Below are positions 226-17,900 of a DNA stretch of 41,867 bases, piece by piece (position 1 is the stretch's first letter; each line of letters starts with the position of its first letter). A program made the position numbers and the translations under genes. Source of the DNA: an uncultured Bacteroidota bacterium (GTDB lineage Bacteria > Bacteroidota > Bacteroidia > Flavobacteriales > Flavobacteriaceae); contig CACMUP010000013.1 in the NCBI GenBank assembly GCA_902616905.1, forward strand, positions 1 through 41,867. The letters run 5' to 3'. The notes below the pieces were generated by a model. That model made no database searches and was not told the DNA's origin. It saw nothing but the letters and a program-made list of their open reading frames with translations.

Positions 226-299
226 GGTCCTATAGCTCAGTTGGTTAGAGTAGCTGACTCATAATCAGTTGGTCCCTGGTTCGAGCCCAGGTGGGACCA
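226..299 (+). tRNA. tRNA with CAT anticodon (elongator Met or lysidine-modified Ile2)
   Basis: A full cloverleaf can be folded by hand. The acceptor stem is GGTCCTA (226-232) with TGGGACC (292-298) and discriminator A299. The D stem is GCTC/GAGT, the anticodon stem GCTGA/TCAGT around loop CTCATAA with anticodon CAT, and the T arm CCTGG-TTCGAGC-CCAGG. The CCA end is not encoded. The initiator is unlikely because the anticodon stem lacks three consecutive G-C pairs. A CAT anticodon without further identity analysis fits elongator Met or the Ile2 tRNA read by lysidine. A perfect hairpin terminator follows at once. The last bases of this gene recur at 7898-7911, suggesting it served as an integration site. 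Confidence 0.95.
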
Positions 300-301
300 C
301 C
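288..301 (+). repeat. Putative attachment-site core, left copy (inside tRNA 3' end)
   Basis: The 14-mer CAGGTGGGACCACC covers the 3' strand of the T stem and the acceptor end of the tRNA, and is repeated exactly at 7898-7911. Counting from 283, 17 of 19 bases match (283-301 against 7893-7911). Tyrosine-recombinase elements commonly integrate in tRNA 3' ends and leave this arrangement: an intact gene at one end and a 3' fragment at the other. Calling it att is an inference; no integrase gene is visible between the copies. Confidence 0.6.
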
Positions 302-304
302 CTT

Positions 305-337
305 AAACCCTCTAAGTCATTGATTTAGAGGGTTTTT
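305..337 (+). terminator. Rho-independent terminator after the tRNA
   Basis: An 11-bp perfect stem, AAACCCTCTAA (305-315) and TTAGAGGGTTT (325-335), closes a 9-base loop and ends in a T run (333-337). It lies 6 bases past the tRNA. If the segment to the right is an integrated element, this terminator belongs to the element, and the terminator at 7943-7968 is the tRNA's older one. Confidence 0.85.
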
Positions 338-354
338 GTTTTAAGGAATCTTTG

Positions 355-378
355 TGGTAAACCAAATGGTAAACCAAA
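355..378 (+). repeat. Tandem TGGTAAACCAAA 12-mers
   Basis: Two copies of TGGTAAACCAAA lie head to tail (355-366 and 367-378), just before the first gene of the putative island. The core GGTAAACC and its complement recur in two palindromes at 1335-1386. Clustered motifs next to a candidate attachment site could be recombinase arm-binding sites or operators; the function is not shown. Confidence 0.6.
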
Positions 379-398
379 ATATTTATTTTTGAAAGAAG

Positions 399-797
399 AT
401 GAACAGAAAATATTTTTATTATTTTGTTTTTGGATTTACTTTTTTAACATTCGGTTTGGTTCAAGATTACATCAGACCAAATTATGAAGGAGGAAATTCC
501 CTTATAATTTATTTTCTTAGAGTAATTCCTAACTTCCTTCCAGGTATTGGTCTACCAAGTATGTTTTATGTAACCATTCCAGAAATATTTAAACATAATA
601 CATCTATTTACAGAAATAGATTAAAGTGGTCAATAACCATTTCTATGATTGGTCTAATTGGAAATGAGTTCATAACAATTTACACTCCAGGAAGAGGAGT
701 TTTTGATTGGAATGATATTGTATGGACAATTATTGGGGGAATAGTTTTTTATTTTCTACATATAATAATTCAAAACTATTCCGAACCTAAATCCTAA
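399..797 (+). CDS. Hypothetical four-helix membrane protein
   Basis: The protein has 132 residues and four likely membrane helices (about residues 5-22, 33-60 broken by a Pro-Gly turn, 76-94 and 106-124), with short polar loops and a charged C-terminus. I do not recognise a family. It starts with ATG in a clear coding frame and lies 21 bases before the DUF1569 gene on the same strand, so the two may be co-transcribed. It is the first gene inside the tRNA-flanked interval and is bracketed by TGGTAAACC-type repeats, which hints that these two genes are element cargo. No catalytic motif is visible. Confidence 0.65.
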   Translation: MNRKYFYYFVFGFTFLTFGLVQDYIRPNYEGGNSLIIYFLRVIPNFLPGIGLPSMFYVTIPEIFKHNTSIYRNRLKWSITISMIGLIGNEFITIYTPGRGVFDWNDIVWTIIGGIVFYFLHIIIQNYSEPKS

Positions 798-818
798 CCA
801 AAACCTCTAATTTGTAAT

Positions 819-1268
819 ATGATTTATGACTTTGATTCCCTTATTGATAAGTTGAATTATCTTGAAGAAGAGACATCTCCTAAATGGGGGAAAATGAATT
901 CATTTAAAATGATTAATCATTGTAACAATTTTATTGAAGTCTCAATGGGAAATCAAAAAATTAGTCTTTGGACAAGATTATTTGGTAAACTTTTTGGAAA
1001 ACTATTTTTGAAATATTTAAAGTCATTGGATTTTGATATAAATAAGTATCCAAAAAATTCAAAGACCCTAAAAGAGTTTAAACCTTTTATTTCACAAGAA
1101 TCATTTTTAAATCAAAAAAACAGACTTACGGAAAATCTCAAAATAGTTAAGGAGTTAAAATCTCATTATACTATTCACAACATTTATGGTAAAATTGAAA
1201 CTAGATTATTTAAAAAAATAGTTCATTTCCACACGTCATATCACTTTAATCAATTTGGGATTTTATAA
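819..1268 (+). CDS. DUF1569 (DinB-like fold) protein
   Basis: A 149-residue soluble protein. It resembles the DUF1569 family: an N-terminal region with a W-G-K-M-N motif near residue 23, then a His-containing helix (M-I-N-H-C-N near 31-36). It ends with the characteristic H-F-H-T-S-Y-H-F-N-Q-F-G stretch near residues 136-147, whose histidines could bind metal as in the DinB superfamily. The middle (about residues 47-70) is rich in Lys and Phe. No substrate is known for this family. The gene follows the membrane protein by 21 bases. Family assignment rests on the start and end motifs only. Confidence 0.65.
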   Translation: MIYDFDSLIDKLNYLEEETSPKWGKMNSFKMINHCNNFIEVSMGNQKISLWTRLFGKLFGKLFLKYLKSLDFDINKYPKNSKTLKEFKPFISQESFLNQKNRLTENLKIVKELKSHYTIHNIYGKIETRLFKKIVHFHTSYHFNQFGIL

Positions 1269-1334
1269 TTGGTCCTTTTTTACTTGAACTAATTTAAGGG
1301 TCAAAATTTGAACAATATTTAATAACAAAACACT

Positions 1335-1386
1335 TGGTTTACCGAGTAAACCATTTTTCTCTGTTTTGGTTTACCTAGTAAACCAA
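1335..1386 (+). repeat. Pair of GGTTTAC palindromes
   Basis: Two near-identical inverted repeats with 3-base centres: TGGTTTAC-CGA-GTAAACCA (1335-1353) and TTGGTTTAC-CTA-GTAAACCAA (1366-1386). Their half-site is the same GGTAAACC motif seen in tandem at 355-378. Such palindromes suit a dimeric DNA-binding protein or a recombinase. They are not followed by T runs, so terminators are unlikely. Confidence 0.7.
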
Positions 1387-1585
1387 ATAATTATTTTCGA
1401 TAAATATAACTACAAGTAAATCAATACATTAAGCTATTAATTATAACTTGGTGCAAGTACAGGAAGGGTTTGTGATAAGTTGGGAAGGAGTTTTGTGGGG
1501 TATGATTTGAGATTGAATTATTACAACTTTTGATTATTTATTCTCGGAATCAGGTAATAGGTGGAAACAGATGATTTGAATCACG

Positions 1586-1653
1586 AATACTGATACGTTA
1601 ATCAAATCAAAAGATTTAAATAAAATATATCAACCTTCACTTATCTTCATTAT
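1586..1653 (+). repeat. Imperfect direct repeat, left copy
   Basis: Aligned by hand with 6884-6950. Both begin AATACTGATAC, share TAATCAAAT, AAGATTTAAA and TATATCAA, and end CTTCATT. About four fifths of the positions match over roughly 66 columns with one gap. The right copy is the 3' flank and last codons of the excisionase-like gene; the left copy abuts the 3' end of the DUF4340 gene. The pair therefore brackets the ABC transporter block. Confidence 0.65.
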
Positions 1654-1657
1654 TTGA

Positions 1658-2617
1658 CTATTTCAAAAAATAACCTCGATTTACAAATAGGCGTTTGAAT
1701 AGCCCTGTCGAATCACTCTCAATAAAGACATTTGGATATTGGGATGCGTTCAGGATGTAGTTTTTTGTTGTTGTAGAATCCCTATAAGCTTTTATAATTA
1801 GGTCTTTAGTTGAATCACCTTGAATTGTCAAGGTATAATCCGCATTACCTTTAGGTTTAAATCCGTCAATAAACCGTGAGCTACTTTGATAACGTAAGGT
1901 ATTAAGATATTGAGTCACTTTGGTAGAATCTGGTGAAATCTCTCCCATAAACCAATCAGACTCTTTTTTAGAAAGAGAAAAAGTGTTGTTTTTATTAGTC
2001 TCAAATTTTAATCGTGTAATTAAATCTTTATTAAGCTTGATGAACTCTGTATTTCGCCATGTATTAAAATTCCGTTTAAACGTATTGGAAAGTCCGCCTT
2101 TTATAGCGTATGTACTGGGGGTTTCATTGATTCTAAAATATGTAGAGGCATCAACAGAAGGACGTCCTCTAAATCCAGGATTTTGGGATTGTCTATTTGT
2201 TGTTTTTCCAAAATATAGCTTTGTTGGCTTTTCCTTGCCCTGTTGGTAGATTTCAACACATAGCGCTAAAGTATCCGTTAACTCATATGTTTCCCATTTT
2301 TCTTTGGTTTTAGAGACTAACTGTTCGGTTTTTATTTGCTCTAACTGACCAAGTACACTATTAACAGTAGATTGATTCGCCAGGGTTTTTATAGTGCCTT
2401 GGGCAACTTGCCAATTATCATCATCTTTTGAAATAATAATTAGTTCCTCCTCCGAAGAAGATGGCGGACAAATAATAATTTTATTCAACGTAGAAGAATC
2501 AAACTGAATCACTTCAGCTTTAAAGATAGCACTGCTATGCTTTTTAAAATAATTTGTTGTTACAAATAGTAATACTAGACCTACTAATACTAATATTAAT
2601 ATGTTATTTTTTTTCAT
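1658..2617 (-). CDS. DUF4340 membrane-anchored protein, last gene of the GldAFG-like operon
   Basis: A 319-residue protein with one N-terminal membrane helix (about residues 5-23) and a long extracytoplasmic part. It matches the DUF4340 pattern: a repeated beta-rich module with W-x-V/W-x-x motifs (N-W-Q-V-A-Q-G near 69-75; S-D-W-F-M-G-E near 220), a Y-F-G-K-T segment near 133-138, and the sequence R-L-F-V-N-R-G-Y-F-L-K at the very C-terminus. The gene follows the gldG-like gene by 19 bases on the same strand. DUF4340 proteins are widely found beside ABC-2 permeases and GldG-like auxiliary proteins in many phyla, where they are assumed to be part of the transporter. Function is otherwise unknown. 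Confidence 0.8.
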   Translation of the reverse strand: MKKNNILILVLVGLVLLFVTTNYFKKHSSAIFKAEVIQFDSSTLNKIIICPPSSSEEELIIISKDDDNWQVAQGTIKTLANQSTVNSVLGQLEQIKTEQLVSKTKEKWETYELTDTLALCVEIYQQGKEKPTKLYFGKTTNRQSQNPGFRGRPSVDASTYFRINETPSTYAIKGGLSNTFKRNFNTWRNTEFIKLNKDLITRLKFETNKNNTFSLSKKESDWFMGEISPDSTKVTQYLNTLRYQSSSRFIDGFKPKGNADYTLTIQGDSTKDLIIKAYRDSTTTKNYILNASQYPNVFIESDSTGLFKRLFVNRGYFLK

Positions 2618-2636
2618 GAGTTAAATCTTTAGTTGA

Positions 2637-4139
2637 TTATTCATAGTTCTCTTCTATTCTTTTACTCCGCTTATTTCTGTTCATCTGCATCCTTACCACA
2701 CCATAGATGATTACTAGAATAATAGGCAGTAAAAAATTGAGATATTTCAGGGTCGTTTTAGTACTATCTTCCAAGGTGTCTATTGGGCGATATCTTATCC
2801 CTTTATTCCTTAAGTCAATTAACCCTGTATCATCGCTTAACCAATCAATAGCATTGACCATAAGATTGACATTTCCTGATTGTAACTGCTGTTGTCCACT
2901 ATTAATAGGAAAATCTCCATCCCCAACCACACAAATACGAGACTTGTTACCATTATCGTGTGTTTGTTCCAAAACCCCTGCAACTATCTGATTAGGTGCA
3001 TTAAAATCCATTTCAGTCCATTGCTTTTGAATGTCAAAAAACTGTGGAGCTTTTAATTTTGCAGAATTTTTAGATGAAAAGGCCAAAGGAGTAAATGTGG
3101 TAAGGGAATCTTTGGCAGCAAATTTTAATGAACTAACAAACTGCATCACTACGGCTTCCAGACCTTTAGTAGCTGGATGGTCTGCAAATTGACTTATGAT
3201 TGGGAAATAAGGAAAAGAAACATTGGAAGTGAAATTAAAGTATCCCTGTCGTTGTTGTACACCAACGCTAGCACATTGTGCATCTATCACAAAGTCTTCT
3301 CGGACTTCTAAACCTTTTGACTCCAGCCATTTTTCCAAACCTGTATTCTGACTAGTTCCATAGGCATTATTTAAATCACCATTTACCCTATTCAAAGCTA
3401 TAAATAGATTACCTCCTTTTTCTAGGAATTTGTCTAACTGGTCAAGACTTTCATTATTAATGGTATCCGTAGGACGAATAATAGCTAAAGTCTTTGTGTT
3501 TTCTGGAACAGGTGTTATATCATTTACTTTAGTAGAATTAAAATCGTATAAAACATCTAGAGCTGTTTTTACCTGAGAAAGTTCTGAAATGGAGGCTTGT
3601 CCATTACCTTCCATGAGCCCAACTTCAGGTTTATCGTTTACCGCTATCTTTTTTATGGATGACGACAAGAGGTATTCCAAAGGGGCTCCCGGTTGCATAA
3701 ATGGAATAACTTCTTTTTGTTCTTCCAATTCTAGAACGGCTCCTAAAAAAGATTTTTGCTGTTTCATTTGGTCCTTTTCCCTAACATTAATCATGACTGG
3801 ATTAATACCAGCTTCCAAAGCTTCTCGCTCTGTTTTCTCATTTTCGTTGGGGTCAATAAAGGTGTATACTAGATTTTCATCTGATTTTCGAGCATATTCT
3901 ATTAGGTACTCTTCAAAATTATTCTTGGTTTTTGCAATATCTGGCGGAAGGTTTTCTGAGAAATAAGCTTTGACCGTAATTGGATTTTCTAGCGACTTCA
4001 TAATATCTTCAGTTGCTTCGCTTAAAGTATATTGCTTATCTTCGGTTAAATCTATTCTAAAAAAATATTCCTCGGATAATAAGTTCACAAATAACAGTAT
4101 ACTTAAAATTAATAGTATGGTTACGTTTGTCTTTTTCAT
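2637..4139 (-). CDS. gldG: GldG-like ABC transporter auxiliary protein
   Basis: A 500-residue protein with an N-terminal helix (about 6-22) and a C-terminal helix (about 466-484), framing a large extracytoplasmic domain. This is the GldG/ABC_transp_aux topology. The segment E-D-K-Q-Y-T-L-S near residues 33-40 and the following 'yfS.nlP' stretch (A-Y-F-S-E-N-L-P near 59-66) are typical of the family, as is the G-D-G-D-F motif near 405. GldG works with the GldF permease and GldA ATPase; in Flavobacterium that complex is needed for gliding. The DUF4340 gene downstream and the contiguous A-F-G order are more like the general ABC_transp_aux operon than the classical split gldA / gldFG loci, so the gliding role is uncertain. 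It starts 50 bases after the permease gene. Confidence 0.85.
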   Translation of the reverse strand: MKKTNVTILLILSILLFVNLLSEEYFFRIDLTEDKQYTLSEATEDIMKSLENPITVKAYFSENLPPDIAKTKNNFEEYLIEYARKSDENLVYTFIDPNENEKTEREALEAGINPVMINVREKDQMKQQKSFLGAVLELEEQKEVIPFMQPGAPLEYLLSSSIKKIAVNDKPEVGLMEGNGQASISELSQVKTALDVLYDFNSTKVNDITPVPENTKTLAIIRPTDTINNESLDQLDKFLEKGGNLFIALNRVNGDLNNAYGTSQNTGLEKWLESKGLEVREDFVIDAQCASVGVQQRQGYFNFTSNVSFPYFPIISQFADHPATKGLEAVVMQFVSSLKFAAKDSLTTFTPLAFSSKNSAKLKAPQFFDIQKQWTEMDFNAPNQIVAGVLEQTHDNGNKSRICVVGDGDFPINSGQQQLQSGNVNLMVNAIDWLSDDTGLIDLRNKGIRYRPIDTLEDSTKTTLKYLNFLLPIILVIIYGVVRMQMNRNKRSKRIEENYE

Positions 4140-4189
4140 CTATGTGTTTTTATTTTTTTCAATGGTCAGATTCATGTTTTAATAATTGA

Positions 4190-4912
4190 TTAAGAAGAAT
4201 GTCTTTTTGATAATGACGACTCTCCAAGATAAAGCCCCAAAACTGTTATAGATAGAAAATAAACCAGGTCTTTAGAATCTATAACGCCTCTGGAAATGGA
4301 TTCAAAATGGGATTGAAGATTTAAGGTTTCAAAAATCTGTCCTATACTTCCCGTAAAGTTCTGGGCCAAAACGCCAAAAATGATATGGAAAAATAACCCG
4401 ATAAAAAGGGCAGTCATAAATGCCACAATTTGATTTGTGGTTATACTACTTGCAAAAATTCCAATTGCAGTATATGTGATGCTCATTAGCAGTAAGCCAA
4501 AATAGCCACAAATAGTTCCACCATTATCTAAATTACCAATACTGGAAACTGTTATAACATAAGGTAAGGTCGCCAATAGGGCTATACAGACTAACAAGAC
4601 CGACCCTAAGAATTTTCCAAGAATCAATTGTCGGTCTGATACCGACTTGGTAAGCAAAAGTTCCAATGTTCCTGTTTTTCTCTCCTCAGCCAACATTTTC
4701 ATGGTTATGGCAGGAATGAAAAAGAAAAGACTCCATGAAGCAATGCTAAAGAATACGCGCAAATTGGCTTGACCTACTAGAAAAATATCATTGCCATACA
4801 ACCAAGTAAAAAAGCCGCTAAATCCTAAAAAAAGTCCTAAGATAATATAGGCTATAAGGGAGTCGAAAAAAATTTCCAATTCTCGTTTGGCTATTATCCA
4901 AATTGTTTTCAT
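4190..4912 (-). CDS. gldF: GldF-like ABC-2 permease
   Basis: A 240-residue integral membrane protein with six predicted helices. The ABC-2 signature region lies between helices 2 and 3: M-L-A-E-E-R-K-T-G-T-L-E-L-L-L-T (about 73-88), a coupling segment with the E-x-K-x-x-G-T-x-E-x-L-L pattern, followed by S-D-R-Q-L-I-L-G-K-F. The N-terminal K-R-E-L-E-I-F-F-D-S is also typical of the family. It forms the membrane channel of the complex with the ATPase encoded 2 bases upstream. The substrate is not known, and this branch of ABC-2 permeases is usually thought to act in export or envelope assembly. Confidence 0.88.
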   Translation of the reverse strand: MKTIWIIAKRELEIFFDSLIAYIILGLFLGFSGFFTWLYGNDIFLVGQANLRVFFSIASWSLFFFIPAITMKMLAEERKTGTLELLLTKSVSDRQLILGKFLGSVLLVCIALLATLPYVITVSSIGNLDNGGTICGYFGLLLMSITYTAIGIFASSITTNQIVAFMTALFIGLFFHIIFGVLAQNFTGSIGQIFETLNLQSHFESISRGVIDSKDLVYFLSITVLGLYLGESSLSKRHSS

Positions 4913-4914
4913 AT

Positions 4915-5844
4915 TTATTTTACTGTTAAGTTTCTGAAAATATCCTCAAGTTTCGTTTCCAATGGTGTGAGTTCCGTCAGCACCCATTTGTTTTGAACGC
5001 ACAGGTTAAATACATTTCGTTTAGAGGTCTGTTCGACAAGGCTCTGTACTTCAAATACATTTTGATTTTGTTCAATACATGCTACCGATTGGACAGTGTC
5101 CAATGTCCGTAGGGATTTTAAAATCTTATCTGCTTTACCATCCTCAATACGAAGCTTTAATTTTTCATTCCCTTGCGACTGCTTTCTAAGTGTTTCCGAT
5201 GTGCCATTAGCTACAATCTTACCTCTATTGATTATAAGAATACGGTCGCATGTAGCCTCTACCTCTGGTAGAATGTGTGTGCTGAGTATAACGGTCTTTT
5301 CTTTTCCCAAGTCACGAATTAGTTTTCTAATTTCTATAATTTGGTTGGGGTCTAACCCTGTTGTAGGTTCATCTAAAACCAGAATTTCAGGGTCGTGAAT
5401 CATGGCTTGAGCAAGGCCTACACGTTGCCTGTATCCCTTAGATAGTTCTCCTATTTTTTTATGCTTTTCGCTATTTAAGCCACAAACCCCTACCATTTCA
5501 CGAATTCTTTTATTGATATTCTGTTTTTCTATACCCTGGAGGGACGCACAAAATTCCAAATAGTCTATCACAGGCATATCATGGTATAAGGGGTTATTTT
5601 CAGGGAGATAACCAATGTGCCTTTTTAAATCATACGTAGGGTCCGTAACGCTTTTTCCTCCTATTTGAATATCCCCTTTTTCGAACCCTATATAGCCAGT
5701 AATCATTTTCATTGTGGTAGATTTTCCTGCTCCGTTAGGTCCTAAAAATCCTAAAACCTCTCCTGTTTTAACGTCAAAACTGATATCGTTTACAGCGGTT
5801 TGAGGTCCGTAGGTCTTAGTTAGTTTTTCTATTTGTATATCCAT
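4915..5844 (-). CDS. gldA: GldA-like ABC transporter ATP-binding protein
   Basis: A 309-residue cytoplasmic ATPase. Walker A GPNGAGKST is at residues 35-43, the ABC signature LSKGYRQ at about 134-140, and Walker B ILVLDEP at about 154-160, with the switch His in I-L-S-T-H just after. The C-terminal ~90 residues are the extra domain found in GldA and other ABC-2 ATPases. It is the first gene of a leftward operon (ATPase, permease, auxiliary protein, DUF4340) with 2, 50 and 19 base gaps. ATP hydrolysis here should drive the GldF/GldG-like partners. The operon lies inside the tRNA-flanked interval, which is unexpected if these were the cell's essential gliding genes. Confidence 0.9.
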   Translation of the reverse strand: MDIQIEKLTKTYGPQTAVNDISFDVKTGEVLGFLGPNGAGKSTTMKMITGYIGFEKGDIQIGGKSVTDPTYDLKRHIGYLPENNPLYHDMPVIDYLEFCASLQGIEKQNINKRIREMVGVCGLNSEKHKKIGELSKGYRQRVGLAQAMIHDPEILVLDEPTTGLDPNQIIEIRKLIRDLGKEKTVILSTHILPEVEATCDRILIINRGKIVANGTSETLRKQSQGNEKLKLRIEDGKADKILKSLRTLDTVQSVACIEQNQNVFEVQSLVEQTSKRNVFNLCVQNKWVLTELTPLETKLEDIFRNLTVK

Positions 5845-5882
5845 AGTTTATATAGCATGTGTTAATTTGATTGAATTATTAT

Positions 5883-6302
5883 TTAGATTTTATTAGTGGA
5901 TGATTTCTCTTTTTGGAGGTGGTGCCTTATGAAAATACTATCAAAAATTTTTTGTTGTCCTTTTAACCTTTGTCGCCAAATTGAATCAAGGTTTCTAAAG
6001 TTTTGATGAAACAAGTTTGGGAAACCAAAATCAAAATCATCAAATGGTTCTTTAAATGGCATAGTTCCTCGATTTGGAAAAAATTGATTCATTAAAGAGT
6101 CCATTTTTTTGGTATCCATATTGGAGTTAGTACTGGAATAACTATAAACTGAATCATATCTGATTAAATTTCCATGCTCATCAAACACCTTATTTACTTT
6201 AATTTTCTCCTCTGAAGGCTTTATGGAATCGATTTTTTGTGCATAAGTGATAATACTGAACCAAAATGAAACCGTAAGAATTACTGTGTCTAACTTTTTC
6301 AT
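5883..6302 (-). CDS. Small secreted protein, unknown family
   Basis: I place the start at the ATG of M-K-K-L-D-T (6302) rather than the in-frame ATG seven codons upstream, because it gives a clean Sec signal peptide (about residues 1-21, ending T-Y-A-Q). The mature part is about 118 residues, hydrophilic, rich in Phe, Asp, Ser and Lys, with a D-D-F-D-F-G-F-P segment and a run of F-D-S-I / L-D-S-I-W-R motifs near the C-terminus. I recognise no family. It lies 38 bases upstream of the ATPase gene on the same strand and could be the first gene of that operon. Confidence 0.55.
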   Translation of the reverse strand: MKKLDTVILTVSFWFSIITYAQKIDSIKPSEEKIKVNKVFDEHGNLIRYDSVYSYSSTNSNMDTKKMDSLMNQFFPNRGTMPFKEPFDDFDFGFPNLFHQNFRNLDSIWRQRLKGQQKIFDSIFIRHHLQKEKSSTNKI

Positions 6303-6945
6303 AATACTAAATACAAATATCAAATAGAAGTAAACATAGAGATTGATGTTAATTCCTTAGCTAACTCTTTAGTAAGATTACTGCATAAAACTTAAATTCG
6401 AAAAGTTTACTTCCTATAAGAAGTGAGTTTGGAAGAGAAGATTAACCTCGATAATTTTCGAACGAATTGCAGTTCTGTGAGCCCGATTATTATATTATCT
6501 GGTGAAAGTTTTCTGAATGTCTTTCCAATTGACCAAACAAAAACTACGGGCGAAAATCTGATTTTTTGTCTAATAAATTGCATCTTTTTTTTATTTTATA
6601 AGTTAAAATTAAAAAAAATTTGGATTTTAGGGAAACTAATTTTCAATCGTTACCCCACTTAGTTTTGTTCCAAAAAACGAGTTTGAGGAGAAACTCTATT
6701 ATTCAAAAAAAGATGAATCAAAAAAATCATAAAAATGATTCAAGAAGAGATTCAAAGATTAAAATCCTTAGATTACCCTATCATTTTCCATAGATAGAAA
6801 AAACCTAACCCCGATATAAAAACCACTCCGATTAGGGTTTAGGGGAAAAGTATTCTCTCAGTTACAAGAAACCTCAACCTGAAAATACTGATACACTAAT
6901 CAAATTATAAGATTTAAAGAAAGTATATCAAACCTTCTTATTACT
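6303..6945. other. AT-rich gap without a supported gene
   Basis: About 640 bases, very AT-rich, with poly-A and poly-T tracts near 6590-6640 and 6700-6750. The only frame of any length starts at a GTG (6423-6662) and shows no recognisable domain. Near 6801-6845 there is an imperfect inverted repeat (AAACCTAACCCC against a stretch containing ATTAGGGTTTAGGGG) that may be a terminator for the leftward helix-turn-helix gene. The right copy of the long direct repeat (6884-6950) closes the gap. It reads like decayed mobile-element DNA. Confidence 0.5.
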
Positions 6946-6950
6946 TCATT
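6884..6950 (+). repeat. Imperfect direct repeat, right copy
   Basis: This is the partner of 1586-1653, with about four fifths identity. It covers the 3' flank of the excisionase-like gene and its stop codon at 6946-6948. The TCATT at the end of both copies suggests that the left copy is a displaced piece of the same element's 3' flank. Confidence 0.65.
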
Positions 6951-7158
6951 CTGATACACTTTGATTATTTAACCTCTTAACTGAATAATTCCCTTTCAAA
7001 CTATTTTCCCACTCTAATAAATCCTTTTCTGTGATGTATTTTGAATGAGTGGATACTTCTATCATATTTAATCCTCTATTTCTTCTCCAATCTTCTATGG
7101 TTACTCTATCTACTCCGTAGAGTTCCATTAAATCCTTTTTACTCAATCTTCTTTCCAT
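6946..7158 (-). CDS. Excisionase/MerR-like helix-turn-helix protein
   Basis: A 70-residue protein. Residues about 4-52 form a winged-helix excisionase-type fold: L-S-K-K-D-L-M-E-L-Y-G-V as helix 1, D-R-V-T-I-E-D-W-R-R-N as recognition helix, a short wing, then Y-I-T-E-K-D-L-L-E-W as the last helix. The match to the helix-turn-helix (HTH_17/Xis-like) families common on Bacteroidota integrative elements is good. Its ATG lies inside the 3' end of the upstream small gene (20-base overlap), so the two are translationally linked. It sits about 750 bases from the right-hand attachment-like repeat, as excisionase genes often do. Role as excisionase is inferred. Confidence 0.7.
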   Translation of the reverse strand: MERRLSKKDLMELYGVDRVTIEDWRRNRGLNMIEVSTHSKYITEKDLLEWENSLKGNYSVKRLNNQSVSE

Positions 7159-7333
7159 ATACTTTTATCTCTTCTTTCTCTAAAAGCTCATCAAACATCT
7201 TATCATACATTTCTCTATCTCCTGAGATTCTGTATTTCTCAAGTTTATGAGAAAAGTTTTTAATTAAGACAGACTTCTTCTTTAACATATCTACCATATG
7301 TCTTGCTTGTTCATCTGTTATATTTTCTATCAT
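7139..7333 (-). CDS. Small helical protein coupled to the excisionase-like gene
   Basis: I choose the ATG at 7333 (M-I-E-N-I-T) over the one five codons upstream because AAAGGA lies just ahead of it. The 64 residues are charged and predicted all-helical, with repeated Lys/Glu (K-K-K-S-V-L-I-K-N-F and D-E-L-L-E-K-E-E). No family is recognised. It overlaps the excisionase-like gene by 20 bases. Such small charged proteins are common in control modules of mobile elements, but no function can be assigned. Confidence 0.5.
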   Translation of the reverse strand: MIENITDEQARHMVDMLKKKSVLIKNFSHKLEKYRISGDREMYDKMFDELLEKEEIKVYGKKIE

Positions 7334-7374
7334 ATTTTTTCCTTTCATAGTATTTAGTTCGAGGTTGATACTCT

Positions 7375-7545
7375 TTATTTCAATCTGATTTTCTTATCAC
7401 TATTACTATTTAATACTTTAGATATACTTCCAAAAGGGATACAATCCACCTTATAGAGAAGGTTTTTAATCTTCCCCATAAGATGTATATAATAACTCTT
7501 CCAACGAGGTATTACAATAGTGTTTATTGGATATTCACACTCAAC
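7375..7545 (-). pseudogene. Possible decayed reading frame next to the element control genes
   Basis: On the minus strand a 56-codon open frame runs from a stop at 7546-7548 to TAA at 7375-7377. It has protein-like composition (I-V-I-P-R-W-K-S-Y-Y-I-H, then L-Y-K-V-D-C-I-P-F-G) but no proper start codon. Just upstream, another frame reads V-P-D-E-R-A-L-G before a stop, so a frameshifted remnant of a longer gene is likely. No family is identified. The rest of 7546-7778 shows no gene. Confidence 0.3.
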
Positions 7546-7778
7546 CTAATGCCCTTTCATCAGGTACCACCTCCTACTTTATGTATCTCAACAAAGGCTG
7601 TTCGGTTCCTTGGTTACATTCATTATTGATAGGGATACAAGGTGTTTTCCAAAACTCTCCAACTATCAACTCCTAAAAGTTCAAACGATTGTTATAACCA
7701 ACATTTAGAATCATCACTTTTATATAAGTATACCAACTTTTAGAAAACGTAAAAAAGTATGAGAAAAAAGTAGAAAAT

Positions 7779-7846
7779 AACTTCTGTTAAATCTAACAGA
7801 AGTTGTTAGTACCCAAATTATGAACTTAGTACCCAAGAGGTACTAA
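7779..7846. repeat. Hairpin and TTAGTACC repeats near the right end of the island
   Basis: There are three signals within 70 bases: a perfect 11-bp stem AACTTCTGTTA/TAACAGAAGTT (7779-7789 and 7794-7804, 4-base loop); an 11-bp direct repeat TTAGTACCCAA at 7806-7816 and 7826-7836, spaced exactly 20 bp; and an inverted repeat TTAGTACC/GGTACTAA (7826-7833 and 7839-7846). No T run follows the hairpin. Their position 50-120 bases from the right attachment-like repeat is where recombinase arm sites would be expected. Confidence 0.6.
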
Positions 7847-7897
7847 TAATATATTTTTATATATTGTAAATGAGTAAGTTATAAATAGTTATGAGTA

Positions 7898-7911
7898 CAG
7901 GTGGGACCACC
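7898..7911 (+). repeat. Putative attachment-site core, right copy (tRNA 3' fragment)
   Basis: Exact copy of bases 288-301 of the tRNA gene, with GAG three bases upstream also matching. It is followed, 32 bases on, by a strong hairpin terminator, as expected if this is the original 3' end of the tRNA displaced by an insertion of about 7.6 kb. Confidence 0.6.
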
Positions 7912-7942: not shown

Positions 7943-7973
7943 AAGCCCTTCGTGTAATCGAGGGGTTTTCTTT
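7943..7973 (+). terminator. Terminator, probably the original tRNA terminator
   Basis: Stem 7943-7952 with 7959-7968 (core CCCTTCG/CGAGGGG with one T-G pair, extended by outer A-T pairs), 6-base loop, then TTTTCTTT. No gene ends on the plus strand just before it. The nearest upstream feature is the tRNA 3' fragment, which supports displacement of the tRNA by an integrated element. Confidence 0.75.
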
Positions 7974-8540: not shown

Positions 8541-9068
8541 ATGAAAAATTACACATTACTTATTATCATTTTCTTTTCATTTGGATTTGTGCATTCTCAA
8601 AGATTCAAAGAACTTGATAAAAGCCCATTAGATATGATACAGTTTCCTGGAAATAGAGGAGAAAGTCAATGGGCAAGAATTTTATATAGCCGTCCTCAAT
8701 TAAAAGGTAGAGAAATTTCTTCAATTGTTCCAGAAGGTCAAGTTTGGAGAATGGGAGCAAATGAATCTACAGAATTGACTTTATATTTACCAATGAAAGT
8801 TTCAGGAACTATATTACCTAAAGGCTCTTACACTTTATATGCTATTCCATTTGAAAATGAAATTACTATAATAATAAACAAAGCAACTAATGTTTGGGGA
8901 GCATATAGTTATAATCGAGATTTTGATATCATTAGAGTTAAAGTTCCACTAAAGGAGGTGGAAGAATCTCTTGAGGCTTTTTCTATGATATTTGGTAAAA
9001 AAGAATCGGAGATGGTTTTACATATGGGATGGGGGAATTATAGAGCATCACTCTCTTTCACGAAATAA
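8541..9068 (+). CDS. DUF2911 secreted protein
   Basis: The start is taken at the second ATG of the frame (8541), which gives a typical signal peptide (M-K-N-Y-T-L-L-I-I-I ... F-V-H-S-Q, about 20 residues). The mature protein of about 155 residues is DUF2911. It has the N-terminal D-K-S-P-L-D-M, then I-L-Y-S-R-P-Q-L-K-G-R-E-I, then V-W-R-M-G-A-N-E-S-T-E with P-K-G-S-Y-T-L-Y-A-I-P, and W-G-A-Y-S-Y. DUF2911 proteins are common in Bacteroidota, often periplasmic, and of unknown function. The strand-rich fold suggests a binding domain. Gaps to both neighbours make it a probable single-gene transcript. Confidence 0.85.
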   Translation: MKNYTLLIIIFFSFGFVHSQRFKELDKSPLDMIQFPGNRGESQWARILYSRPQLKGREISSIVPEGQVWRMGANESTELTLYLPMKVSGTILPKGSYTLYAIPFENEITIIINKATNVWGAYSYNRDFDIIRVKVPLKEVEESLEAFSMIFGKKESEMVLHMGWGNYRASLSFTK

Positions 9069-11017: not shown

Positions 11018-11938
11018 TTATTCAACACCACTAGGTCCATCTTTAGATGTTTTATCAGATTCGCCTAAGTTGATTCTAAATACGAGTTCGTGTGTTCTAA
11101 GATTTAGTTGTGAGAGACCGTTATCTGTTGGGGTCTCATAGGCATACCCTACATCAAATAGTCCTAGTGACACCACTGTCATAAGCGCCATAGAACTGTT
11201 CGTTCTAATAGAGAGTCCCACATCAAATTGATTTTGCCAGCTCACCATTCCTGTAATATCCGCAGTAACAGGAAGCCCCTTTACTTTTCTTACCATAAGA
11301 GAAGGTTTTACATAGATTCCGTTAGATACAGCTAAGTCTACACCACCTCCTAGATAAGTGTGTACACGATCTTTCGCTGTTACCGCCAGATTATCGGCTT
11401 CTCGGTTTACATTAAAAAGTCTAGGAATAGAAAAGGATACCCAATAACTAGCAGCTTTATAATAAGCTCCTGCTCCTATATTTGGATTGAACTTACTTAA
11501 ACTTATCTGACTTGGATCCCCTACACTTGAATAGGTGCTTAAGTTAGTAGGGTCAGAGTTATAGAAGTTCCCCCCTGCTTTGAGTCCAAGAAAAAGGGTC
11601 GCATCTCCACTCATTTGTAGCTTGTATGAGAAGTCTATATAAGCAAAGGTTTGTTGTTCTACAAAGACTTTGTCAGAGACCAGAGAGAGTCCTAATCCTA
11701 CATTATTTTCTCTTGCGGAAGAATAGGCAAAGGCTAAAGTTCGGGGAGCGTCTTGTACGGAAGCCCATTGGCTTCTTGAAGTAAAAGAAAGCATATTCGG
11801 TGCATCAGCCCCCGCAAAAGCGGGATTGATCACGTTCATATTATAACGATACAAGGAGTAATAAGACTCCTGCTGACCATATCCAAGTAGTGGCAGAATA
11901 AACAGTAATAACAAGCTACTTTTTCTTATCATAGTCAT
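11018..11938 (-). CDS. PorP/SprF family outer-membrane protein, partner of the giant adhesin
   Basis: A 306-residue protein. I start at the ATG at 11938, which shares a base with the adhesin stop codon (TGATG); a GTG one codon upstream is also in frame. After a signal peptide (about residues 3-20, ending G-Y-G-Q) comes the family hallmark Y-Y-S-L-Y-R-Y-N-M-N-V-I-N-P-A-F-A-G and S-R-S-Q-W. Beta-strand-rich repeats follow, with L-G-L-S-L-V-S-D-K near 80, consistent with an outer-membrane barrel. PorP/SprF proteins work with T9SS; in gliding flavobacteria SprF-like proteins are needed for secretion or surface retention of type B sorting-domain proteins encoded next to them. The overlap implies coupled translation with its cargo. 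Confidence 0.92.
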   Translation of the reverse strand: MTMIRKSSLLLLFILPLLGYGQQESYYSLYRYNMNVINPAFAGADAPNMLSFTSRSQWASVQDAPRTLAFAYSSARENNVGLGLSLVSDKVFVEQQTFAYIDFSYKLQMSGDATLFLGLKAGGNFYNSDPTNLSTYSSVGDPSQISLSKFNPNIGAGAYYKAASYWVSFSIPRLFNVNREADNLAVTAKDRVHTYLGGGVDLAVSNGIYVKPSLMVRKVKGLPVTADITGMVSWQNQFDVGLSIRTNSSMALMTVVSLGLFDVGYAYETPTDNGLSQLNLRTHELVFRINLGESDKTSKDGPSGVE

Positions 11939-14900
11939 CACCTAGTAAGATAGAACCAACCTTCAAAATCTATTGTTCCATTACCATCCAGATCGATACG
12001 GTAGTAGTAACTTCCTGCAGGGAGTTCTACTCCATCTAACGTACCATTCCAGTCATTATTATACGGCTTAGCATTAAATAACTCCGCACCGGTTCTAGAA
12101 TAAATCCATACTTGATTGTCTAGATAACGATCAATCTCCCTTACCTGCCAAGTATCATTCTTACCATCCCCATTAGGAGAGAAGAAGTTAACAATCTCAA
12201 TAGACTCCCTAAGGGCAGGATTGTCAAACCCTTGTGGGAAGCTATTAGCTACCAGTGGGTCTGTACCTGCTAGGGTCTCATCTAAGTTCGGGAAGCCATC
12301 TCCATCCTGGTCGTTATACGGATCATCATCCACACTATCAAATTCATCTACCACACCATCAGCATCTACATCGAGATAACTGGATTCTAAATAATTGGCT
12401 TTACCGTCAAAGTCAGTGTCGTCATCACGAGGATCACCATTACCATTAAGATCTTCTTCTATAGTGAGCATACCATCCTGATCATCATCCGTATCTAAGT
12501 GATCGGCGATACCATCGTTATCAGTATCTAAGAAGTAGTTCTCCCCAGGCTCTGTAATCTCAAAGCTTGTAGGAACACCATCTCCATCATCATCCAGATC
12601 ATGATAATCTGGAATGTCATCTCTATCAGTATCTCTAACATAAAGCCTAGAACTAAATGAAGTACTAGTGAGCTCATACTTAGAAGGTACACCATCGTCT
12701 TCATCATCAATATCTAGATAATCCGCTACTCCATCCTTATCAAAGTCAAGCGCATCAGTAGGAACACCATCCTGGTCCGGATCCGGAGACTCGTCAATCG
12801 AGTCAATACCGTCTCCATCATCATCTGCATCGAGATAGTCAGGAGTACCGTCACGATCACTGTCTATCGCATCAGAAGGATCAAAGTCACCATTAGGATC
12901 CGTCCCTTCAAAGAGACTAAATACCGTATCATTATCATCATCAGGGTCAAGGAAGTCTTGGAAGCCATCCCCATCGGTGTCTACTGATCCAGTTGCCGCA
13001 TTGGTTCGCTCTAATAATCCTTCCACAAGGGATCCTTCAAACTCACTGTATAGATGATCTCCATCATCATCAGGATCTCTTGAGTTGATAATACCGTCTC
13101 CGTCAGTATCGGAGTTCACCAATCCTGGATCTACATCCTCTATCGGGGTGATCTCCGTGTCCAGACCAAAGATTTTTTCCTCCTCAGAGGATACGTCTAC
13201 TTCGATAAGTGCCTCTGCTTTAGGGATCGGTACATTAGGATCACCAGCAGTAGTATTTACATAAGCAATCTCTACCTCATAAACACCATCCTTGTTGGCA
13301 TCATCTGGGTTTTTAGGATCCGGTACATTAACAAAGGCCAGATACCCTTCTCCTAGGTTCTCTTGTCGTTTAGCATAAGGAGAGTAATACTTCTGCTCAC
13401 CCTTGGCAGCAGGCTCTCCTCCTATAATTTTTACTTTATCTGCATCCGCTCCCCCAACTACTTTCTTACGCACCTTCCACTTACCTACATTACGATCAGT
13501 TGTAGGGGCGTCTCCAGAGAACCTTATAGGAAGTGACTTACCAGGGCCTCCTCCTTGGAACAGACCAATACCAATAGAGATATTAAAGTCTTGGTAGAAG
13601 GTAATAAATACGTTCTCCGATACATCACTAATACCATCATTATCATCATCGATATCAGGGATGTCTCCTAGCTCATCTGAGTCGTTGTCTCCATAGACGT
13701 CTACTTCGTCTGGAATACCATCTCCATCATTATCACTACTAAAGTTTGGATCCAGTGGGAAGTCATCCTCTCCATCGATAATACCATCACCATCAGTATC
13801 AGGATTATTAGGATCAGTGCCTTTAAGCTCTTCAAGGAAGTCTGAGATACCGTCGTCGTCACTGTCTTGAGGATTACTATTAGGATCTTTAGGATCAGTG
13901 TTTTGTAAGAGCTCATCTACATCACTATAACCGTCGTTATCATCATCGGTGTCTTTGTTGTCTCCGATATCATCACCATCCGTGTCACTCCACTCTAGTG
14001 GATCCTCTGGGAAGGCATCTTCCTGGTCAGGCACACCATCATTATCATCATCAGGATCTATCTTATCTGGAATACCATCCTCATCGGTGTCTTTTGTAAA
14101 CTCCGGATCCAGTGGGAAGGGATCCTCTAGATCATTCACTCCATCACCATCGGTGTCTGGGTTCTCAGGATCAGTACCTAGGATCGCTTCCTCTATATCA
14201 GAGACGCCGTCACCGTCTAAGTCTTCTGGGAAGTCATCTTTATCTTTAGGATTAGTTCCTGCTTCAATCTCTATCACATCAGGATAACCATCATTATCAT
14301 CGTCATCATCTGCATTGTTACCAATACCATCAGAGTCCGTATCCTCACTCTCCTCTGGATCATAAGGGAAGACATCACTTCTGTCAGGCACCCCGTCATT
14401 ATCATCATCAGGATCTAATAGATCTGGAATACCATCACCATCCTGATCACTATTGTGCTCTGGATCCAGCGGGAAGGCATCAACACTATCGTTTACTCCG
14501 TCACCATCGGTGTCATATTTATTAGGATCCGTACCCAGTTCGATCTCCTCTGCATCAGAGAGCCCGTCCTTATCCGCATCCTCAGGGACACTAAATGGGT
14601 TTAATGGATCACTACCCTCTTGGATCTCAACAGCATCTGGATAGCCGTCGTTGTCATCATCCAAATCCGCATTGTCTCCTATGCCGTCATTGTCATTATC
14701 TGAAGACTCATTAGGATCAAATGGGAACAGATCATTAGAGTTATTTACTCCATCTCCGTCACGATCAGGGTCGCTATTATCTCCAATACCATCACCATCG
14801 AGATCGCTATACTCGTCAGGATCCAGTGGGAAGCGGTCTCTCCTGTCAGGTACGCCGTCATTATCATCATCAGGATCGATATCGTTAGGAATACCGTCTC

Positions 14901-17900
14901 CATCAAAGTCGTTAGAGTTGGATTCATTATTAGGTTCTAGTGGAGCAGGGTCCTCTCCATCATTAAAGCCGTCATCGTCCGTATCAGGATCGTCCGGATC
15001 GGTACCTACAATTAATTCTTGTGGATCAGAGAGGCGGTCATTGTCCCTATCGCTAGGAATACTATTAGGGTCTAAAGGATCCGAGCCTCCTAGGGTCTCC
15101 GCATAATCTGAGTACCCATCACCATCATCATCACCGTCAGCGTTATTTCCTATACCGTCACCATCGGTATCAGTAGTCTCCCTTGGATCGGTTGGGAAGG
15201 CGTCCTGACTATCAGGAGTACCATCATTATCATCATCAGTATCTTGCGCATCTGGGACGCCATCACCATCAGTATCTTTACCTCTTGTAGGATCTAGTGG
15301 GAAGTCATCTTCTCCATCAATAATACCATCTCCATCAGTATCAGGGTTATTAATATCTGTACCTAGCTCTTTCTCTTTAGCATCAGGTAAAAAGTCTCCG
15401 TCTGTGTCTTGCGGTATGATCTTAGGATCTTTAGGATCACTTCCCAGCTCAATCTCTAACAGATCGTCATAACCGTCCCCGTCATCATCTTTGTCAAAAA
15501 GATCAATAATGCCGTCTCCGTCGGTATCTATATTTAAGTCCCCTTCTAATGGTTGAGGATCATCTTTATCACTAATACCATCTCCATCGGTATCTGGGTT
15601 TTCTGGATCCGTACCCAGTTCGATCTCTTGGTTAGTGGTCAGCCCATCCCCATCAGGATCACGAGGATAGTCCAATGCGTCTTTAGGATCTGTGCCGTCC
15701 TCCAGCTCTACAGCGTCATCATACCCATCATTGTCATCATCCAGATCTGCACGATCCCCAATACCGTCTCCATCATAATCAGAAGTCTCATTAGGATCTA
15801 GTGGCAGGTCATCGTCTACGTCTTTTACTCCGTCATTATCATCATCCGGATCTTTATCGTCAGCAATACCATCCCCATCAGAGTCCAGACCCGTCTCAGC
15901 ATTTAGTGGCTCAGAGTCAAACTTATCACTCACACCATCACCATCGGTATCCGGATTATTAGGATCTGTCCCTAGAGTCTCCTCTTCTACATCAGTAAGC
16001 CCGTCTTTATCCTTATCACTAGGAACACTATTAGGATCCAGTGGGTCCGTGCCGGCTCCTATCTCCTGATTGTCAGTAAAGCCGTCGTTATCATCGTCAG
16101 GGTCAATATTATCATTAAGACCGTCCCCGTCACTATCAGGAGCGTTGTTCGGATCTAGTGGGAAGGGATCCTGATCATCTTCTAATCCGTCATTATCATC
16201 ATCCGGATCCGTTTTGTTTGGTATGCCGTCTTCATCGGTATCAGTTTGATAGTTAGGATCCGTTGGGAAGTCGTCTTCTCCGTCGATCACTCCATCTCCA
16301 TCGGTATCGGGATTAGTAGGATCACAGCCCAGACCAATCTCTAATGCATCAGGAAGCTTATCGTTATCTCTATCGCCAGGTACACTCGAAGGATCTAATG
16401 GATCACTGCCTGCCGCCTTCTCGTCACGGTCAGTAAAGCCGTCGTTATCATCATCATCATCCGCATTATCCCCTATACCATCGTTGTCGCTATCTCTAGA
16501 CTCATTAGGATCATCCGGGAAGGCATCTTGATTGTCGTTCACTCCATCGTTGTCTCTATCTTTATCCAATGCATCAGGAGTACCATCCCCATCGCTGTCT
16601 CCGGGAACAGGATCTAAGTTAGGAACCAGTGGATCCGTACCGTTTTTAATCTCGTCCTCATCACTAATACCGTCGTTATCATCATCCGTATCCGCATTAT
16701 CTCCTATACCGTCTTTATCGTTATCCGACCACTCTTTTCCATCATTAGGGAAGAAGTCTTCGTAATCAAAGAAACCGTCACCGTCGATATCCTTTTCATC
16801 ATCAATAAGAGTAATGGTAAAGTCCGCCGTGTCTTCAGCACTTAGGGCACTGTAGTTCACATCCGAAGAAGAAGGTTTACCAGTATTTATAGTCACAGTA
16901 ACATCGCCCCCTGCAGTATCGTTATTGAAGGTATTGATCAAGACCGTTTGAGGGACGTTCCAATTATCTGGAGTAAAGGTGATACTGCTAGGTGAGAGAG
17001 AACTAATCACACTATTGGTTGTAGTAAGTGGTATGGTTACCGGTCCTGTTGGAGGATAGGTAAGTACTGCCGTATAACTTCCCTGCTGCCCCTCTGAAGG
17101 AGAAGCTTCTACAGCACTGAACTCAACACCAAAGGGTACCTCCAGTACTTTTATAGTCATCGGCTTAGTTACGGTATAACCTACAATATCTGTAGCCGTT
17201 ACTTCTACCTCGTAAATACCATCCTCGTTAGCATCAGTAGGCGTATCAAAATCCGGTGCAGGACTCACACTTATCGCTCCTGTTTGTGGGTTAATAGTAA
17301 CATTACCTGCATCTGCCCCGCCAGTAATACTATAGGTAACCGTCTCGTCTGCCACAGCAGCATCTCCTGTAGTAGTACCTTCTGTAATAGTAAGCGACGA
17401 CGTTCCTGTAAACGAGGGAGCCGTGCCGTCTAAACCAAAGCTGCCGCTTAGTACACTCTGGTTAGTGGCAATCTTATTAGGGGTAGTTACCTTAGTCGAA
17501 GACACTACATCCGAAGCACTTATATTAAAGTTAAGACCACCATCTGTATAAGTGTTCGATGCTGTAAGGGTAAAGGTTGCTGTATAGGTATACGGACTGG
17601 TAGCTGTCTCTGCAAAGTTAATCGTAGGCTGGGGATTAATACCTGATAGGGTCATTGAGATTGTCGCAGGGTTAAGTGACCAGGCCTGATCTGAGACTAC
17701 CGTTACCGTAATCACATCACCTTCCTTAGCATTAGAAGAGGATATACTGTTATTAGAACTAACACTTACTGTAAGGTTAGGATCGGTAGCTTTTATCTCT
17801 ATACTGGTAGAGAGCGATACACTATTGGTTGATAAAGCCGTATCCGCATCATTATTATATAAATCTTTTATGCTGCCGCCATTAAGGTCTAATGCACCTG

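Follow-up and report, generated by a model that had tools for sequence, protein, structure and literature searches.

An interval bordered by a tRNA gene and a copy of its 3' end in a marine flavobacterial genome is probably a composite remnant of small integrative elements

Does the DNA between a tRNA gene and a distant copy of its 3' end on contig CACMUP010000013.1 represent one inserted island or the remains of several? The window, meaning the whole stretch of 41,867 nucleotides that was analysed, stems from an uncultured Bacteroidota bacterium (genome assembly GCA_902616905.1, here G000; 1.56 Mb, 68% complete) and contains one tRNA gene according to ARAGORN. The original prediction interpreted positions 288-7911 as a single island that had inserted site-specifically at the tRNA 3' end, with a transporter operon as cargo. 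The attachment sites (att) in question are located as follows:

226-301, + strand: tRNA gene, the integration target (ARAGORN; anticodon CAT, called Met, Ile2 also possible)
288-301, + strand: attL core, comprising the 3' side of the T stem, the acceptor stem and the 3' end
305-335, + strand: terminator-like hairpin (terminator scan, 14 pairs), supplied by the left unit directly 3' of the att
7898-7911, + strand: attR core

The 14-mer of the tRNA 3' end, CAGGTGGGACCACC, is present in exact copies at 288-301 and 7898-7911. These are the sole matches in the 41,867 bases at up to two mismatches (chance mean 0.09) and the sole copies in the assembly at up to one mismatch, and a wider repeat (283-301 and 7893-7911) agrees at 17 of 19 positions (89%), so that both repeat claims of the prediction proved correct. 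A strong terminator had also been expected after each copy; the scan bears this out on the left and calls none on the + strand 3' of the right copy, where CCCTTCG..CGAGGGG-TTTTC is legible by eye at 7947-7970. Hairpin-like sequences follow many att copies in relatives (by eye).

The best answer, to which we assign a rough probability of 0.8, is that the interval consists of elements that accreted at one tRNA gene and were then reduced by deletion, leaving a composite unable to leave as one piece. Part of the evidence lies in short repeats at the element ends. Many left ends exhibit a direct repeat with a period of 11-13 after the att and hairpin-like sequence, and the right ends paired with such left ends carry inverted copies of the left word. 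In the left part of the interval (unit 1) and at its right border, the repeats and the genes between them are arranged as follows:

355-378, + strand: left direct repeat, TGGTAAACCAAA twice with a period of 12, putative integrase arm-type sites
399-797, + strand: VanZ-like gene for a small membrane protein of 132 amino acids (aa), cargo of unit 1 (Pfam VanZ, E 0.0016)
819-1268, + strand: DUF1569-like gene, 149 aa, cargo of unit 1 (Pfam DUF1569, E 4.9e-4)
1335-1387, unstranded: pair of palindromes (GGTTTACC/GGTAAACC) that partner the repeat at 355-378 and mark the old right end of unit 1
1450-1463, + strand: GGTGCAAGTACAGG, possible left half of the lost right att of unit 1, adjoining a methyltransferase remnant
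7806-7846, unstranded: right repeats, TTAGTACCC twice plus GGTACTAA, the word of integrase-bearing tRNA-Met elements, with a putative role as arm-type sites

When the interval is taken whole, its left and right repeats show little agreement (score 1). The left repeat scores 5 against 1335-1387, and the right repeats, AGTACCC, match those of integrase-bearing elements in relatives with scores of 3-5. Because the left word GGTAAACC (355-378) has its partners at 1335-1387, unit 1 spans 302 to ~1460, which shows it to be a separate 1.2-kb unit without integrase and with its own repeats. Both of its genes score below the Pfam cut-offs (19.5 vs. 30.1 for VanZ, 20.7 vs. 21 for DUF1569). The VanZ-like protein has relatives with 86-90% aa identity in G031, G017 and G010, the DUF1569-like protein relatives with 89-91% in G031, G017 and G030, and in G031 and G017 the two genes stand in reverse order. 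These genomes belong to a comparison set of 38 genomes of the genus, G000 included.

Downstream of unit 1, the interval contains the following features:

1462-1514, + strand: remnant of the 3' end of a ParB-N6/N4 DNA methyltransferase gene (92.6% to locus L051 of G021, 5607-5554)
1509-1582, + strand: remnant from the 5' portion of that methyltransferase gene (82% to L051, 6819-6746)
1586-1651, unstranded: second copy of sequence 3' of the excisionase-like gene, repeating 6884-6931 (88%)
1645-6675, unstranded: horizontally moved ATP-binding cassette (ABC) module (97.4% nucleotide identity to the island of G010)
1658-2617, - strand: DUF4340 protein of the ABC operon (Pfam, E 1.1e-22)
2637-4139, - strand: GldG-like auxiliary protein (ABC_transp_aux, E 6.1e-54; GldG model 225.7 vs. 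cut-off 389.85)
4190-4912, - strand: GldF-like ABC-2 permease (239.8 vs. cut-off 288.5)
4915-5844, - strand: GldA-like ABC ATPase (ABC_tran, E 3.3e-30; GldA model 369.8 vs. cut-off 402.6)
5883-6323, - strand: 146-aa open reading frame (ORF) moving with the ABC operon (91% aa identity in G010)
6946-7158, - strand: excisionase-like helix-turn-helix gene, 70 aa, part of the backbone of integrase-bearing elements
7139-7348, - strand: short 69-aa backbone ORF that overlaps the excisionase-like gene (77% aa identity to its G021 homologue)

Comparable matches to the 5' methyltransferase remnant exist in other element loci, and 1586-1651 is also 88% identical to locus L108 of G001 (8765-8831). The order of the two remnants is reversed relative to the methyltransferase gene, which implies either a further copy or a rearrangement. 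The ABC operon is present as predicted (Pfam). An assignment to the gliding-motility transporter GldA/GldF/GldG was rejected, as all three proteins fall below the NCBIfam equivalog cut-offs, and they are regarded as GldAFG-like paralogues. The predicted excisionase-like gene was likewise found, with a match to HTH_17 (E 1.7e-5) that at 25.4 is below the Pfam cut-off of 27 and a match to the PHROG family “excisionase and transcriptional regulator” (E 2.6e-5). In agreement with the prediction, a profile search recognised no integrase among the ORFs between the repeats; the integrase of G021 has no match in the 68% complete G000, where a 213-aa frame at G000:C3:82143-82583 matches the phage integrase family without matching the G021 integrase.

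The missing parts are exhibited by related elements. In G021 (L051), the gene for a 533-aa tyrosine recombinase (Arm-DNA-bind_5, SAM_5 and Phage_integrase) comes after the same tRNA. It is succeeded by the gene for a ParB-N6/N4 methyltransferase of 454 aa, by cargo, by an excisionase-like gene with 90% identity to that of the window and by a small ORF, and the right att that closes the element has two mismatches. This layout, with the integrase directly 3' of the tRNA, then ParB-methyltransferase, variable cargo, and the excisionase-like and small genes at the right, characterizes elements of 5.2-8.5 kb. A pattern-based search of named genomes yielded 19 integrase loci, several of them ending at contig edges and three (L134-L136) holding only the first 61-80 integrase residues; the tRNA lies directly upstream in all 19 (10 tRNA-Met, 9 tRNA-Phe). 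The genomes are titled uncultured or metagenome-assembled Flavobacteriaceae or Bacteroidetes, apart from one Candidatus Arcticimaribacter forsetii and one Saprospiraceae metagenome-assembled genome, and L124, L125 and L129 were taken as the same contigs as G021:C6, G007:C12 and G001:C1. Both att were found in seven loci, and each of these has the integrase, the small ORF and the excisionase-like gene, the last in a shortened form in L120 and L131; a homologue of the small ORF is present in all seven element loci examined. Five of the seven retain a whole methyltransferase gene, the other two having a truncated gene (L126) or a broken reading frame (L131). Residues R309, H433, R436, H459 and Y468, which we take to be the catalytic set, are invariant in three aligned integrases. 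Within the genus, near-full-length integrase copies occur in three of 38 genomes (G021 at tRNA-Met, G007 and G001 at tRNA-Phe). No relaxase, phage, replication or conjugation genes were recognised when the ORFs of parent-like elements were read by eye, no profiles being run. The G021 integrase matches 21 phage records, all below 60% identity and two covering 80%, and shows two weak partial matches to viral contigs; of 175 plasmid records that match the methyltransferase, not one covers 80% of it. Compared with this family, and as judged from the sequence, the interval is shown to combine the family's right end, two of its genes and methyltransferase scraps with a separate left unit. The claim of one island from 288 to 7911 is consequently not supported: its ends stem from different elements (left GGTAAACC, right AGTACCC), with methyltransferase remnants inside.

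Agreement between the two ends of a unit was scored for 12 units. The left word scored at least 4 against its own right end in nine of these (Wsub, G031, G023a, G023bc, G011, G021, G028, G001phe and G014x, the last being a pairing of two contigs), and for the whole interval, G017 and G010 the left word of another element fits the right end better. None of 20,000 permutations reached the summed own-end score in any of three selections (10-11 units). Among seven further units, all five with an integrase agree. By eye, GGTACT-type repeats accompany the 10 tRNA-Met loci as well as L125-L126 (tRNA-Phe, integrase 57-58% identical), and TTGTTCC repeats accompany L127-L133 (tRNA-Phe, integrase 35-37% identical); by this inspection, the repeat word follows the integrase and not the tRNA. 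The end repeats are regarded as putative arm-type integrase sites.

In the proposed mechanism, a tyrosine integrase would bind arm repeats specific to the element at its two ends and recombine at the tRNA core. One element would have entered beside a resident element at the same tRNA, and a deletion would have fused the right end of unit 1 to the methyltransferase gene with loss of the integrase and the middle att, thereby turning at least two tandem small integrative elements into a composite. Given the mismatched end repeats, 288-7911 is predicted not to be excisable as one unit by a single integrase, and it is probably no longer mobile as one piece.

Insertion at the tRNA, as such, is supported. 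At up to one mismatch, the 14-mer has 39 matches in 26 of the 38 genus genomes, compared with three for a reversed control pattern. Twenty-three of them are tRNA 3' ends and 16 lie elsewhere; 15 of the latter, in 12 genomes (G000 included), were read as element borders, the G020 copy being the least clear, and one (G008) as chance. The prediction had pointed to a relative with the tRNA followed directly by the sequence from 7912 onward, and this arrangement exists in G026 (90% over 129 bp) and G025 (83% over 78 bp), while in G023 and G028 the sequence that follows the right copy is found 3' of the right att. Moreover, G017 and G028 share near-identical chromosomes (96.6% identity over 1,664 bp on the left, 1.2-1.6 kb before the tRNA; 93.9-95.7% over more than 10 kb on the right) with inserts at the tRNA of 1,170 and 7,129 bp, respectively, and G028 has ~2.1 kb of additional unshared DNA past its right att. 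Border-like copies in relatives, junctions of the tRNA with the 7912 sequence and different inserts on near-identical chromosomes thus support the earlier claim of site-specific insertion by a tyrosine-recombinase system, and the tRNA 3' end is directly repeated at either border, relatives having alleles that are empty or different. Within the genus, this tRNA end acts as a hot spot of integration, copies of it marking the right borders of inserts.

Tandem accretion also happens, since L119 and L126 each have three successive att copies; L126 stems from a chromosome record of 2.03 Mb. In L119, an integrase-free unit (L119b) with methyltransferase remnant, cargo, excisionase-like gene and a window-type right end looks like a parallel case to the window.

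Several further arrangements were observed in relatives. At tRNA-Phe of Candidatus Arcticimaribacter forsetii (NZ_OU342399.1; L126, 8852-16717), the tandem att copies delimit a 6.1-kb integrase element, then a 1.4-kb unit with one 343-aa ORF, followed by an att and a methyltransferase 3' remnant. G023 (L046, 344-2480) exhibits three consecutive att intervals of 980, 111 and 1,032 bp, of which the 111-bp interval holds little beyond hairpin-like sequence and repeat. G001 carries a second methyltransferase 3' remnant in its cargo region (L108, 6894-6945), preceding ORFs that appear ArsR-like and MerT-like by eye and are also present in L118, which suggests cargo stacking after tandem insertion. 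The 7.1-kb att-flanked unit of G028 (L053, 3291-10433) is without recognised integrase and encodes a C5 DNA methyltransferase, two DNA-glycosylase-like proteins, MazG-like and DUF2779 proteins and a GIY-YIG protein with a match to PD-T4-3 in PADLOC, which was run on G021 and G028 proteins. In the window, positions 11938-28737 form one 5,599-aa ORF with long Asp-rich repeats (by eye), adjoining a PorP-like gene and situated between the tRNA hot spot and aconitase. The labels PorP, DoxX, aconitase, transporter, sulfatase, ArsR-like, MerT-like and giant ORF are those which we presume from the translations.

The most serious competitor is a single integrase-free island that entered in one event, already in its present form, through an integrase acting in trans and is still mobile in that way. 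The exact 14-bp att at both ends, the retained excisionase-like gene and the att-flanked units without recognised integrase in G031, G017, G010, G011, G023 and G028 would all fit; the end repeats, with their score of 1 across the interval against 5 within unit 1 and 3-5 with integrase-bearing elements, disagree, and for this reason it was rejected as the main explanation. The methyltransferase scraps and the duplicated segment 3' of the excisionase-like gene further show internal rearrangement, and we regard this alternative as unlikely.

The history of the ABC cargo bears on a second alternative, ordinary homologous recombination between conserved flanks with site-specific recombination being ancient. 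Compared with G010, the five ABC-module genes diverge at 0.02-0.09 of fourfold sites and six chromosomal genes of the window at 0.56-0.72; the VanZ-like and DUF1569-like genes diverge at 0.12-0.18 from those of G010, G031 and G017. In the 37 other genomes of the genus, the ABC ATPase has a relative with 98% identity in G010 only, the next match by E-value having 46% identity and partial matches at most 61%; the ABC genes thus do not hold this position throughout these genomes, whereas their presence there across the family would have spoken against insertion. As fourfold-site differences of 2-9% stand against 56-72% for chromosomal genes, sequence divergence shows that the ABC cargo moved between species recently. 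Homologous exchange could explain such similarity, as the ABC module is 97% identical to G010 and positions 1-225 are 98% identical to G031 with chromosomal genes at 70-80%. However, the surroundings of the module differ between G000 and G010, each genome having an att and subsequent sequence of its own, and exchange as the sole explanation appears improbable, more so than a single island. Finally, a chance 14-bp repeat beside ordinary chromosomal genes, conceivable inasmuch as 14 bp alone is short, is refuted by the relatives. No shuffle gave two matches, and 12 of the 38 genomes together hold 15 copies that resemble borders and lie outside tRNA genes, against three control-pattern matches overall. 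Separately, the similarity of 1-225 to G031 indicates that recent transfer may reach left of the tRNA, beyond the contig end.

A number of observations weigh against the composite interpretation. Homologous recombination may have contributed, judging from the 98%-identical upstream 225 bp. G017 and G010 fail own-end concordance (score 1), as do both integrase-free further units (L119b lacks a left repeat, and L126b reaches a score of 1), and the five agreeing further units carry only two words already in G021 and G001. A laxer count of any shared word finds all units concordant, the whole interval included (11/11, p 2.5e-4), and the contrast therefore depends on score size. Boundaries of units were chosen manually (Wsub, G023bc, G014x), and the units include some that are related to one another. 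The case for a sharp att-att junction near 1462, with a half-att fused at ACAGG, is weak, as TACAGG also occurs at this place in the methyltransferase genes of some relatives; the junction is accordingly placed only within ~1450-1463 and lacks sharp definition. As for the flanks, no genome seen joins both flanks of the window to an empty site: G026 and G025 match the tRNA and right flank, not the left, and G031, G017 and G010, which share the left flank, have different right contexts. The right flank varies as well, the stretch from the right att to the DoxX-PorP-giant gene-aconitase block differing in length, and an older element might begin with this flank. An assembly error in this metagenome-derived contig is also conceivable.

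How does a composite remnant of this kind compare with known systems? NBU1-type Bacteroides elements have a tyrosine integrase and use the 3' end of a tRNA gene with a short core. NBU1 is mobilised with a relaxase (PMC5704250), whereas none was recognised by eye here, no profile being run. Close counterparts are cis-mobilizable elements (CIMEs), which, together with tandem accretion, have been described for integrative and conjugative elements (ICEs) and integrative and mobilizable elements (IMEs; PMC5704250). Like CIMEs, the interval keeps attL and attR, has lost integration genes and represents a decayed, att-flanked remnant accreted next to another element at one gene end. It differs in having lost the internal att, its two ends stemming from different elements, and in that no conjugation or mobilisation gene was recognised by eye in parent-like elements, no relaxase or type IV secretion system profile being run. 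The interval appears to work like a CIME-type remnant, ICE or IME parentage being at most conceivable. Tycheposons (PMC10872708; PMC11389934) share small-genome aquatic hosts, a tRNA border (Met included), a tyrosine recombinase and variable cargo. The window has the tRNA and cargo without a recognised recombinase, integrases occurring in its relatives, and these relatives of 5.2-8.5 kb carry a ParB-methyltransferase and an excisionase-like gene, the comparison being by description only. An additive island in Methylophilaceae is marked by repeated occurrence of the final 20 bp of a tRNA-Lys gene (PMC10872708), much as tRNA-end copies serve as markers here; tRNA-end arrays in aquatic bacteria are therefore already known, albeit likened by description and in another phylum and at another tRNA. 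Integron cassettes and clusters of attC sites lacking integron-integrases (CALINs) are also arrays of small gene units whose integrase is possibly elsewhere (PMC11389934), whereas the site here is a tRNA-end copy. No description of this element family was found in open-access titles and abstract starts, where several searches matched loosely.

A broader interpretation is possible, if on balance not favoured: the 3' ends of tRNA-Met and tRNA-Phe in marine flavobacteria might serve as a cassette-like platform on which integrase-free units with one or a few genes are moved by different integrases in trans through a shared core. Each unit might bring its own tRNA terminator and a private repeat (GGTAAACC, CGAACC, AGAGTGA, GTGTACC or GAGTTCC). 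The repeat would then track the integrase and the core the tRNA, and such a lock-and-key network might reshuffle cargo between species.

Of interest is the element family and the link between repeat and integrase, more than the copy in the window. This link provides a testable pairing of orphan islands with helpers, and it cautions that repeat-bounded “islands” can be composites with ends of separate origin. Stacking followed by deletion is suggested as a builder of composite islands. The findings further suggest that small-genome bacteria of the sea may swap small cargo via a tRNA end, in elements of ~1-9 kb many of which lack an integrase, with the transporter operon described here and a DNA-modification cluster in relatives as examples of what is exchanged.

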